Assembly: GCF_020099395.1 (NCBI RefSeq)
Contig: NZ_CP083590.1
Location: 3,596,001-3,660,000, forward strand
DNA length: 64,000 nt
DNA from: Streptomyces mobaraensis
Lineage (GTDB): Bacteria > Actinomycetota > Actinomycetes > Streptomycetales > Streptomycetaceae
Reading direction: 5' to 3'
The notes under the pieces are model-generated. The model was not told the origin of the DNA, ran no database searches, and saw only the letters and a program-made list of their open reading frames with translations. Shown here one piece after another: positions 38,994-42,710 of the stretch. A program made the translations under genes and the position numbers. Every line of letters begins with the position of its first letter. Within the stretch, counting starts at the first letter, position 1.

Positions 38994-39029
38994 CCGCTCT
39001 CCGCAGCGGACCGTTCGGAGGAGTATCGC

Positions 39030-39983
39030 GTGATGTCGGCCAGCCGCTACACCTACCTCGGTCCCGAAGGCACCTTCACCGAGGCCGCGCTGCGCACCCT
39101 CCCGGAGGCGGCGACGCGTGAGCTCGTGCCCAAGGTCTCCGTCCCGGCCGCGCTGGACGCCGTGCGCGGCGGCGAGGCGGCGGCGGCGCTGGTGCCCATC
39201 GAGAACTCGGTGGAGGGCGGCGTCACCGCGACCCTGGACGAACTGGCCACCGGCGCCCCGCTGATGATCTACCGCGAGGTGCTGCTGCGGATCGCGTTCG
39301 CCCTGCTCGTCCGGCCGGGAACGAAGCTCTCCGACATCAAGACGGTGACCGGGCACCCGGTCGCGCAGCCGCAGGTGCGCAAGTGGCTCGCGGCCCAACT
39401 GCCGGACGCGCGCTGGGAGTCGGCGGCGTCCAACGCGGACGGGGCGCGGCTGGTGCGGGAGGGCCGCTACGACGCGGCGTTCGCCGGGGAGTTCGCCGCC
39501 GCGACGTACGGTCTGGAGCCGCTGGTCACCGACATCCACGACGCGCGGAACGCGGAGACGCGGTTCGTGCTCGCGGGACGGCCGGCGCGGCCGGCGGCCC
39601 GGACGGGCGCCGACCGGACGTCCATGGTCGTATGGCTGCGGGACGACCACCCGGGCGCGCTGATGGAACTGCTCCAGGAGTTCTCGGCGCGGGGCGTCAA
39701 CCTGACGTGGATCGAGTCGCGGCCGACGGGCGAGGGCATGGGGCGGTACTGCTTCTCCATCGACTGCGAGGGGCACATCACCGACCGGCGGGTGGCCGAG
39801 ACGCTGATGGGCCTGAAGCGGATCTGCCCGAACGTCCGGTTCCTCGGGTCGTATCCGCGCGCGAGCGCGGACGGCGGCGAGCCGGGGGCGCCGGCCGGGG
39901 GTGCGCCGCGGCCGGGGACGTCCGACGCCGATTTCGTGGCGGCGGCGGAGTGGCTGGCGCGCTGCCAGGACGGGCGGGCCTGA
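39030..39983 (+). CDS. pheA: Prephenate dehydratase
   Basis: 317 residues. GTG 39030 and ATG 39033 are both possible after GGAGGAG (39017-39023). It converts prephenate to phenylpyruvate in phenylalanine biosynthesis. The dehydratase domain (about 5-185) shows YLGPEGTFTEAAL, ALVPIENSVEGGVTATLDEL and the NADGARLV...AAFAGEFAA region. The regulatory ACT domain (about 200-275) shows TSMVVWLRDDHPGALMELLQEFSARGVNLTWIESRP, the phenylalanine-binding GALxxxL...ESRP signature, so feedback inhibition is expected. A stand-alone dehydratase without chorismate mutase is normal in actinobacteria. Tail residues 285-317 are partly low-complexity. Confidence 0.95.
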   Translation: MMSASRYTYLGPEGTFTEAALRTLPEAATRELVPKVSVPAALDAVRGGEAAAALVPIENSVEGGVTATLDELATGAPLMIYREVLLRIAFALLVRPGTKLSDIKTVTGHPVAQPQVRKWLAAQLPDARWESAASNADGARLVREGRYDAAFAGEFAAATYGLEPLVTDIHDARNAETRFVLAGRPARPAARTGADRTSMVVWLRDDHPGALMELLQEFSARGVNLTWIESRPTGEGMGRYCFSIDCEGHITDRRVAETLMGLKRICPNVRFLGSYPRASADGGEPGAPAGGAPRPGTSDADFVAAAEWLARCQDGRA

Positions 39984-40623
39984 GCCCGCCTGAGCACCGT
40001 CCTCAGCCCTGTCCCGAGGTCCACCGTCGGATCGTCCACAGAGTTATCCACAGGGCGGTCCACTCCTGGGGATAAGTCGACAGAGCGAGGCCCGGCCGGG
40101 CGGTACGAATCGGTCAACGTCGACAAATCTCTCTAGCAATCCACCGGATCGTCCACAGGACCGGCCGTCGAGTGGTGGGATCGTCCACCACCCCGGGGTC
40201 AGCCGAAAGGTCTCGAACAACCCTTAAGAGCAGGAAATCTCCACTCGAAAGAGTGTTGGAACAAGGTTTATCCGCCAGAAAGCCACCAAACCGTGGCCGA
40301 TAACGAAAACAGCCGGAAGATCCGCTTCCGGCGTCCACAGATTTCGCACACACCCTGTGGACAACAAACCGGAATCACCCGTTCCTGTGGACAACCAAAG
40401 GCCCACAGGCGCCTCCCCACCGCCATGGGACGATTCGTCGACCTCTCTCCTTTTCGCGGCGGATCACCGAATTCACCCCGTGCGCCCCCAAGGTTTTCCA
40501 CCCTTTCCCCACCGGCCCGCACCCGGTCCCGGAAAACCGGGAAAACCACCCGGAATGGGGCAAAACCTCCCGAAGAGGAATATCGCGTCGAGTGATCGTG
40601 ACGGTCAACGGTAGCCTGGGGGG
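39984..40623. other. DnaA-box cluster between pheA and serS
   Basis: The 640-bp gap has no gene, is less GC-rich than its surroundings, and is full of DnaA boxes. Two are perfect Streptomyces boxes TTGTCCACA on the minus strand (40356-40364, 40386-40394). One is TTATCCACA (40044-40052), perfect E. coli type. TCGTCCACA at 40032-40040 and 40149-40157 has one mismatch. Weaker ones are TCGTCCACC 40181-40189, GCGTCCACA 40331-40339 and TTATCCCCA (minus) 40067-40075. There is no dnaA, dnaN or parAB gene near, so it is not oriC. In S. coelicolor a high-affinity cluster, D78, near oriC limits initiation; I believe serS lies on that cosmid. Confidence 0.85.
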
Positions 40624-40624
40624 G
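40612..40624 (+). promoter_or_regulatory. Likely leaderless serS promoter (-10)
   Basis: TAGCCT (40612-40617) ends 6 nt before the GTG start, the spacing of a leaderless transcript; no ribosome binding site other than a G-run is present. No good -35 was found 17-18 bp upstream. Confidence 0.5.
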
Positions 40625-41901
40625 TGATTGACCTTCGCCTGCTTCGTGAGGACCCCGACCGTGTGCGCGCCTCCCAGCGCGCCCGTGGAGAGGACGTCGA
40701 CATCGTCGACGCACTGCTCTCCGCCGACGAGCGGCGCAGGTCGTCCGGCGTCCGCTTCGACGAACTCCGCGCCGAGCAGAAGGCGCTCGGCAAGCTGATC
40801 CCCAAGGCCACCGGCGACGAGAAGGCCGAGCTGCTGAAGAAGGCCGGCGAGCTGTCCGCCGCCGTCAAGGCCGCCGACGCCGAGCAGGACGAGGCCGCGG
40901 CGGAGGCCCAGCGCCTCCTGCTGGGCATCGGCAACCTCGTCCACCCGGACGTACCGCGCGGCGGCGAGGACGACTTCGTCGTCCTGGAGACCGTCGGCAC
41001 CCCCCGCGACTTCGCCGCCGAGGGCTTCGAGCCCAAGGACCACCTGGAGCTGGGCCAGTCGCTCGGCGCGATCGACGTCGAGCGCGGCGCCAAGGTGTCC
41101 GGCTCGCGCTTCTACTACCTCACCGGCGTCGGCGCGCTCCTGGAGCTCGCCCTCGTCAACGCCGCCATCGCGCAGGCCACCGCGGCCGGCTTCACCCCGA
41201 TGCTCACCCCCGCGCTGGTCAAGCCGCGCGCCATGGAGGGCACCGGCTTCCTGGGCCAGGCCGCGCAGGACGTCTACCACCTGGAGAAGGACGACTTCTA
41301 CCTGGTCGGCACGTCCGAGGTGCCGCTCGCCGCGTACCACATGGACGAGATCATCGAGGCGGACAAGCTCCCGCTGCGGTACGCCGGTTTCTCGCCCTGC
41401 TTCCGCCGCGAGGCCGGCACGTACGGCAAGGACACCCGGGGCATCTTCCGCGTCCACCAGTTCGACAAGGTGGAGATGTTCTCGTACATCGCCCCCGAGG
41501 AGGCCGAGGCCGAGCACGCCCGGCTGCTGGAGTGGGAGAAGCAGTGGCTGACCAGCCTGGAGCTGCCCTTCCAGGTGATCGACACGGCCACCGGTGACCT
41601 CGGTGCCTCCGCCTCCCGCAAGTTCGACTGCGAGGCGTGGATCCCCACCCAGGGCAAGTACCGCGAGCTGACCTCGACGTCCAACTGCGACGAGTTCCAG
41701 GCCCGCCGGCTGTCCGTGCGGATGCGCGACGGCAAGAACGTCCGCCCGCTCGCCACCCTGAACGGCACGCTGTGCGCGGTGCCGCGCACGATCGTCGCGC
41801 TGCTGGAGAACCACCAGCAGGCCGACGGCACGGTCCGGGTGCCCGAGGTGCTCCGGCCGTACCTGGGCGGACGCGAGGTCCTGGAGCCGGTCGCCAAGTG
41901 A
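40624..41901 (+). CDS. serS: Seryl-tRNA synthetase
   Basis: 425 residues, full length. Charges tRNA-Ser with serine using ATP. The N-terminal coiled-coil tRNA-binding arm (about residues 27-105, [45 protein letters not shown]) is followed by the class II catalytic core: motif 2 in [25 protein letters not shown], the serine-binding TSEVPL, and motif 3 with [20 protein letters not shown]. Essential cytoplasmic enzyme. It is followed, with GTGA overlap, by a HAD phosphatase gene. Transcription probably starts at or next to the GTG, within or beside the DnaA-box region, so DnaA could influence expression. Confidence 0.97.
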
Positions 41902-42710
41902 CGTCCGCGCCCCCGCCCCCGTACCGTCTCGTCGCCACCGACCTCGACGGCACGCTGCTGCGGTCCGACGAGACCGTCTCCGAGCGCACCCGCGCCGCCC
42001 TCGCCCGCGCGGCGGCGGCCGGAGCCGCGCACATCGTCGTCACCGGCCGCCCGGTCGCATGGACGAAGCACATACTCGACGTGCTGGACTACCGGGGCCT
42101 CGCGGTGTGCGGGCAGGGCGCGCAGGTCTACCACGCGGGCGAGCACCGGCTGCTCACCTCGGTGACCCTGGACCGGCGGGTGGCCGCACTCGCCGTGGAG
42201 AAGATCGAGGCCGAGACCGGACCGCTGCACCTCGCCGCCTCCCGCGACGGCCTCGACGGCGACCTGCTCGTCACCGCCGGCTACCGGCTCCAGGAAGGGC
42301 CGCGCCCGCCCGTCCCCGTCACCGACCAGGCGGACCTGTGGGCCGAGCCGCTCAACAAGCTCTACCTCCAGCACCCGCGGCTCGACGACGACGCCCTCGC
42401 GGAGGCCGCCCGGGCCGCCGCGGGCGGCCTCGTCGACGTCACGATGGCCGGCGAGGGCATCGTCGAACTGCTCCCGCTCGGGCTGAGCAAGGCGACCGGG
42501 CTGTCGCTGGCCGCGCGGCGGCTCGGGATCAAGGCCGCGGAGACGATCGCCTTCGGCGACATGCCCAATGACATCCCGATGTTCGGGTGGGCGGGGTACG
42601 GCGTGGCCATGGCCGGCGCGCACGCGGAGCTCAAGGCCGTCGCCGACGAGGTGACGGCGGGGAACGACGAGGACGGCATCGCCGTCGTTGTGGAGCGGCT
42701 CTTCGGCTGA
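41898..42710 (+). CDS. Cof-type HAD phosphatase
   Basis: 270 residues; GTG overlaps the serS stop (GTGA). HAD superfamily, Cof subfamily (type IIB cap): motif [11 protein letters not shown] near residue 14, motif II in IVVTGRP, the conserved Lys in [11 protein letters not shown], and motif III/IV in [16 protein letters not shown]. Such enzymes remove phosphate from sugar phosphates, FMN or similar small molecules. Coupling to serS is conserved in Streptomyces from memory, but the functional reason is unknown. All catalytic residues are present. Confidence 0.92.

Follow-up and report, generated by a model that had tools for sequence, protein, structure and literature searches.

Between pheA and serS, the DnaA boxes are clustered in two pairs that together make up an interrupted palindrome; the boxes of each pair converge and are about 25 bp apart. 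Among related genomes, the distance between the two halves (box 2 to box D) shifts in steps of about 10.5 bp, i.e., mostly by whole helix turns. We regard it as fairly probable that the cluster acts as a DnaA-bridged loop that restrains replication initiation and, in Streptomyces, is also phased with the serS promoter. The observed part of this reading comprises the sequence, its conservation, the palindrome and the phasing; DnaA binding, the loop and the effects on initiation and serS are predicted on that basis.

In the following, the window denotes the whole 64-kb stretch of DNA that was analysed (G000:C1:3596001-3660000). The locus is composed as follows, with conserved blocks taken from the conservation profiles described below.

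39030-39983, plus strand: pheA (prephenate dehydratase; Pfam PDT and ACT, PF00800/PF01842), the upstream neighbour
39984-40623: pheA-serS gap of 640 bp, which holds the DnaA-box cluster
40032-40040, plus strand: box 1, TCGTCCACA, 12 bp ahead of box 2
40044-40052, plus strand: box 2, TTATCCACA, strong box of the left module
40067-40075, minus strand: box 3, TTATCCCCA, one mismatch, convergent partner of box 2
40074-40082, plus strand: conserved block AAGTCGACA of the left module
40119-40129, plus strand: conserved block GTCGACAAATC
40149-40157, plus strand: spacer box TCGTCCACA, less conserved
from 40181: weak site TCGTCCACC, two mismatches
40246-40255, plus strand: conserved spacer block CGAAAGAGTG
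40331-40339, plus strand: weak box 5, GCGTCCACA, two mismatches, the mirror of box 3 and 25 bp from box D
40356-40364, minus strand: box D, TTGTCCACA, strong box of the right module
40386-40394, minus strand: box E, TTGTCCACA, 30 bp past box D
40610-40619, plus strand: conserved GGTAGCCTGG, immediately upstream of the serS start
40624-41901, plus strand: serS (seryl-tRNA synthetase; Pfam Seryl_tRNA_N and tRNA-synt_2b, PF02403/PF00587)

The first-pass annotation of this DNA had reported eight DnaA-box-like sites in a comparatively AT-rich gap without dnaA/dnaN context, and we recover all of this. Within 363 bp there are six boxes that deviate by one mismatch or less, along with two weaker sites, and the GC content (200-bp windows) falls to 0.525-0.64 in the gap (40000-40599) vs. 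0.67-0.785 over the adjoining genes. The dnaA/dnaN context that marks an oriC was not found at the cluster, which is flanked by pheA and serS, while dnaA is located at C1:3762841, about 127 kb away. A second replication origin would go along with boxes in comparatively AT-rich DNA, but given these neighbours and a distant dnaA that has an eight-box region of its own, we consider it extremely improbable.

Next to serS, the TAGCCT within GGTAGCCTGG may be the -10 element of a leaderless serS message. A sigma-70 scan gave no plus-strand promoter at 40610-40619. When 39000-42000 was searched with Rfam for a T-box or another leader RNA, the single match was located towards the 3' end of serS and scored below the gathering threshold of its family.

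The box density exceeds chance, as had been claimed. Allowing one mismatch, TTRTCCACA matches 13 times in the window compared to a mean of 4.9 in 100 shuffles (2/100 reached 13), and 6 of the 13 matches fall inside the 363 bp of the cluster. Within its own genome, TTGTCCACA occurs 30 times vs. 9 times for the reversed pattern. We ranked 30 loci, drawn from around dnaA and the TTGTCCACA sites, by their number of boxes with at most one mismatch per 400 bp: the region beside dnaA holds 8, the cluster 6, and the next best loci (two) 4. As is characteristic of a D78-type locus, the cluster lies outside oriC, on the chromosome and in the origin region. Its distance to dnaA was measured in 19 Streptomyces genomes, where it is always 76-127 kb, and in two genomes of a second genus, where it is 142 and 160 kb; for these distances, a second, partial DnaA_C match elsewhere in G124 was left out and the place in G246 is that of its ScbR2 site (see below).

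Two further observations concern the rest of the genome. The two four-box groups (C1:3728299-3728387 and C1:3778891-3779101) lie about 34 and 16 kb either side of dnaA and are possible counterparts of the H24 and H69 DnaA-box clusters of S. coelicolor. Furthermore, tandem pairs of DnaA boxes in the same orientation, 18 bp apart, are dispersed over the genome. Such pairs were seen in 6/29 TTGTCCACA loci (L002, L003, L004, L009, L010, L023), with one more at 19 bp (L024) and a pair at C1:2781180/2781198. Several share similar flanks and a similar, TTGTCCACAACCGGCGGGTTGTCCACAG-like spacer, and one is near an open reading frame that by eye resembles rpsB. The pairs are possibly a DnaA regulon or the site of another regulator.

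To describe the architecture across relatives, we used two sets of loci, in which identical DNA was counted once. A strict pattern (box 2 and box D with starts 241-271 bp apart) matches 330/392 Streptomyces genomes, with no match of its reversed control among the rows listed, and the window's own genome (312 bp) is among the 62/392 without a match. The other 61 of these were targeted for the first set and 60 of them obtained. Together with 80 serS loci (kept from 572 found; all titled Streptomyces except L066, 'Actinobacteria bacterium'), the window and three more, they make up 144 loci, 135 of them distinct. Since the first set was drawn in part from genomes without the strict pattern, unusual spacings are over-represented in it. 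For the fresh set, we took 99 genomes outside the first draw with no selection on spacing; dropping 8 identical ones leaves 91 distinct loci and a total of 226. Box positions were located by consensus scoring. The automatic rule left 7/226 loci unmeasured (L056, L063, L144, L154, L158, L182, L270), which we count as misses. By hand, the distance from box 2 to box D reads 270 bp in L056, 280 in L144 and 280 in L158, while L063 is without a left module and L154 and L182 gave no clear reading; the L056 value was entered by hand into the raw-distance and tree analyses and into an earlier run of 81 loci.

The left module, i.e., box 2 and box 3 on opposite strands at 23-25 bp with at most one mismatch in box 3, is present in 216/226 loci; the spacing is usually 25 bp and 23 bp in the window. 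The right module pairs box D with the weak box 5, at a distance of 25 bp in 218/226 loci. The modules are mirror images of each other, with the strong boxes outside and pointing inwards and the weak boxes inside. Around this core, box 1 (at most one mismatch) precedes box 2 by 12-13 bp in 133/226 loci, and box E follows box D at 29-31 bp in 203/213. The modules are usually about 260 bp apart, compared to 312 bp in the window, and the distance between AAGTCGACA and GTCGACAAATC is 24 bp in most loci vs. 45 bp in the window.

In 201/226 distinct loci, none of the boxes 2, 3, D and E deviates by more than one mismatch. Perfect matches are found for box 2 in 210/226, for box D in 195/226 (mostly as TTATCCACA instead of the window's TTGTCCACA) and for box E in 182/226 loci. 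In conservation profiles anchored at box 2, box D, box E and serS, the modules and the stretch directly before serS are conserved and the DNA between them is low; boxes 2, D and E mostly reach at least 90% per position, and most flanking positions stay well below. The first-pass annotation had named a lower conservation of the boxes relative to their surroundings in the gap as evidence against its proposal, and we find the opposite.

We also looked at base composition along the gap. In the spacer (window 40114-40255 and relatives, 211 loci), A/T dinucleotides show a power of 2.75 at 10.0 bp, where 1 is random, compared to 2.48 at 9.2 bp between box E and serS and 1.76 at 11.2 bp between pheA and box 2; kinship is ignored in all three values. 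The spacer periodicity may reflect intrinsic bending.

The helical phasing inside the cluster was seen in the first set and then predicted for the second. Among the 129/135 first-set loci with a measured box 2-box D distance, the values are periodic (R=0.72 at 10.6 bp) and group at 194-195, 248-250, 255-262, 268-273, 276-282, 288-291, 294-295, 300-303 and 312 bp; the 34 distinct values alone yield R=0.44 (p=0.0003 vs. random values in the range). The prediction of whole-turn spacing was written down before the fresh set was sampled. There, 90/91 loci were measured and have a mean cosine of 0.83 on the predicted lattice. For the 30 values outside the main peak, the mean cosine is 0.76; counting each of the 13 distinct values among them once, it is 0.56 (p=0.00025). 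One value (263) falls into the predicted anti-phase zones; it is absent from the test of the other 30 values because the 'main peak' set aside 256-263. Over both sets, 204/213 distances are within about 3 bp of the lattice 259.5 + 10.6k (histogram count), and 9/213 are further off (255, 256, 263, 276, 277, 288 twice, 295, 308).

Related genomes share distances, such that raw values (R=0.82 for box 2-box D at its best period) overstate the evidence. We thus counted changes of 5-120 bp by parsimony on a one-gene tree (172 serS genes, FastTree). For box 2-box D, 25 of the 32 changes are of 8-12 bp, the best period is 9.9 bp and 0/4000 jittered sets are as periodic. Just 7 changes are of at least 15 bp and these are weakly on the lattice (mean cosine 0.20 at 10.6 bp), i.e., the multi-turn evidence from these events alone is weak. 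In 70 non-overlapping pairs of near relatives, 12 pairs differ in this distance (p=0.02).

Both the pairing and the phasing speak to what kind of site this is. A merely passive titration by independent boxes that soak up DnaA and form no loop would be in line with a box-rich, conserved region at 76-127 kb from dnaA in 19/19 Streptomyces, but boxes acting independently would require no fixed 25-bp pairing (218/226) and no whole-turn spacing between the halves. We therefore consider it unlikely.

For the interval from box E to serS, phasing was not predicted; it was first named as a control, though early data hinted at a periodicity. The tree yields 82 changes with peaks at 9-13 bp (38 changes), 21-26 bp (17) and 31-36 bp (16), the best period is 11.2 bp and none of 4000 jittered sets is as periodic (R=0.66 at the best period for raw distances). 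Among the near pairs, 32/70 differ by at least 5 bp. Their net differences show a mean cosine of 0.61 at 11.1 bp, with 0/20000 jittered sets as periodic, vs. -0.06 for the single aligned indels (noisy alignments), which are not periodic. It is therefore the net spacing that is kept and not the size of the indel. Between the end of pheA and box 2, the 104 tree changes are not periodic (p=0.35; p=0.055 in an earlier run of 81 loci); the raw values give R=0.31 at 11.7 bp. Net spacing is thus preserved within the cluster and towards serS, but not towards pheA. In other operons, loops with a periodicity of about 11 bp are known in vivo. The phasing could also serve a protein other than DnaA.

A mutational habit of 11-bp duplications would produce phasing without selection, and many single changes are indeed of 10-12 bp. 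No such habit is visible in the 104 changes of the neighbouring DNA between pheA and box 2 (p=0.35), and self-similarity between box E and serS is raised at lag 9 only, not at lag 11. Moreover, some net differences of about 11 bp sum unequal indels, e.g., 5+6, although these alignments are noisy. This explanation is accordingly rated as very unlikely.

The one-sided phasing could also mean that the cluster mainly serves DnaA to regulate the serS promoter, in the manner of two operators placed upstream, with any replication effect secondary: the 11-bp steps are on the serS side, both as tree changes and as net differences of near pairs, and not on the pheA side. Evidence from outside Streptomyces weighs against this. 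In a second genus of the family (its sister genus, 14 genomes), DnaA boxes are found upstream of serS in 14/14, and in 10/14 (L113, L194-L202) a gene for a polysaccharide deacetylase, encoded on the other strand, intervenes between cluster and serS (PF01522 in the one tested, TFDDGP motif on the minus strand in 10/10), with pheA directly upstream of the cluster in all ten. Since the deacetylase gene reads toward the cluster, the cluster there lies between two gene ends. Control of serS can thus not be its sole role, because the cluster persists where serS is separated from it, and we judge a primarily serS-directed function improbable. The first-pass annotation had suggested a tie between DnaA level and serS via the promoter region; the helical phasing in Streptomyces speaks for a link, while serS control as the sole role does not hold. 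Further away, in 15 genomes from two other families of the order, the 1.5 kb ahead of serS are free of boxes at a tolerance of one mismatch. A shorter-spaced two-box pattern matches 12/14 genomes of the second genus and 1/15 of the other families, and this lone match is on a contig different from that of serS.

The S. coelicolor D78 DnaA-box cluster is reported (Smulczyk-Krawczyszyn 2006) to be a strong binding site for DnaA and to hold back both replication and aerial growth. Going by cosmid names, it is presumably located in the serS/pheA region. Our literature search found no paper on D78, the primary paper not being covered; a match for SCD78 was rejected since it is the name of an ethanol-producing strain. 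Sequence comparison gives good support for the orthology of this gap with the one between pheA and serS in S. coelicolor: in one 8.6-Mb genome (G246), the 28-mer published for S. coelicolor sco3961 is found without a mismatch and is flanked by DnaA boxes to its left and right. The cluster is very probably the counterpart of D78. Of the earlier D78 proposal, a conserved cluster away from oriC in an orthologous gap is borne out, and the identity with the published D78 is presumed. Passages of PMC5742627 and PMC10950094 (one of them a review) describe for S. coelicolor a datA-like DnaA-box cluster that represses untimely initiation.

The 28-mer originates from PMC4595836, which in the part on ScbR2 names serS (sco3961) among the EMSA-confirmed targets, with a possible site predicted by MEME. 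The serS fold change given there, 0.947, counts against a serS regulator, albeit it bears on ScbR2 and not on DnaA. The exact site was found in 1/392 genomes (G246) and with 1-3 mismatches in eight more. In 9/9 of these (L305-L313) it is located inside the spacer, 101 bp past the first base of box 2 and 159-178 bp ahead of box D, and 8/9 carry a box-like TCGTCCACC within the site. Beyond the S. coelicolor group the site fades; the window gave no close match, being absent among the 70 closest of 135 loci. We treat the ScbR2 site as a lead, since the EMSA tested a promoter probe and not the site alone and since ScbR2 sites are degenerate. A further-reaching and so far rather speculative extension would be a switchboard in which the loop sequesters DnaA, the serS register lets the DnaA level set the output of seryl-tRNA synthetase, and ScbR2 opens or closes the loop from mid-spacer in the S. 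coelicolor group. If true, quorum and antibiotic signals (ScbR2 being a receptor of the gamma-butyrolactone type) would be tied to replication and development.

Returning to the DnaA-bridged loop, we envisage the following course. DnaA would bind the two mirror modules, each a strong box and a facing weak box at about 25 bp, flanked by the outer boxes. DnaA on both modules would then join them such that the spacer forms a loop. Such a loop needs both modules on matching helix faces, which would be why their distance changes by whole turns. According to PMC4285127 and PMC5043019, the DnaA of S. coelicolor has a weak affinity for single boxes and links subcomplexes at oriC to form loops, which makes DnaA the obvious bridge. 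The complex would draw DnaA from oriC, either by titration or by promoting ATP hydrolysis as at E. coli datA, and thereby restrain initiation; this last step is inferred from the statements of two papers and from D78. Given the helical register with the serS promoter region in Streptomyces, the same complex probably touches serS transcription as well. We place replication control first because some genomes of the sister genus retain the cluster without the suggested contact to the serS promoter region.

A close relative of this reading is a site that changes the nucleotide state of DnaA, i.e., datA-like or DARS-like with a nucleoid protein in the spacer. The fixed geometry and the conserved non-box blocks in modules and spacer would suit it, and the S. 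coelicolor cluster is called datA-analogous in PMC5742627 and PMC10950094. Sequence cannot tell hydrolysis or nucleotide exchange from titration, and we hold this variant to be possible but doubtful.

As far as checked, the interrupted palindrome, the module steps of about 10.5 bp and the serS steps of about 11 bp are new, as are the predicted ScbR2 site inside the spacer and the persistence away from serS in the sister genus. How actinobacteria restrain replication is less well understood than for E. coli. A fixed, helically phased geometry turns the old description of a box cluster into a testable machine, and serS phasing and the ScbR2 site would link replication control with translation and antibiotic signalling.

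Among known systems, S. coelicolor D78 likewise consists of DnaA boxes outside oriC on a Streptomyces chromosome. The mirror modules, the whole-turn spacing and the serS phasing are described here for the present cluster. E. coli datA resembles the cluster as a non-coding group of DnaA boxes away from oriC that restrains initiation, according to PMC5742627 and PMC10950094. At datA, an IHF site and neighbouring tRNA genes are known. The DnaA-box clusters of B. subtilis (Okumura 2012, as cited in PMC5742627) are also chromosomal and repress untimely initiation. E. coli DARS1 and DARS2 share with the cluster that they are non-coding DnaA-box sites of fixed geometry. Their described action is the reactivation of DnaA-ADP to DnaA-ATP (PMC4585315).
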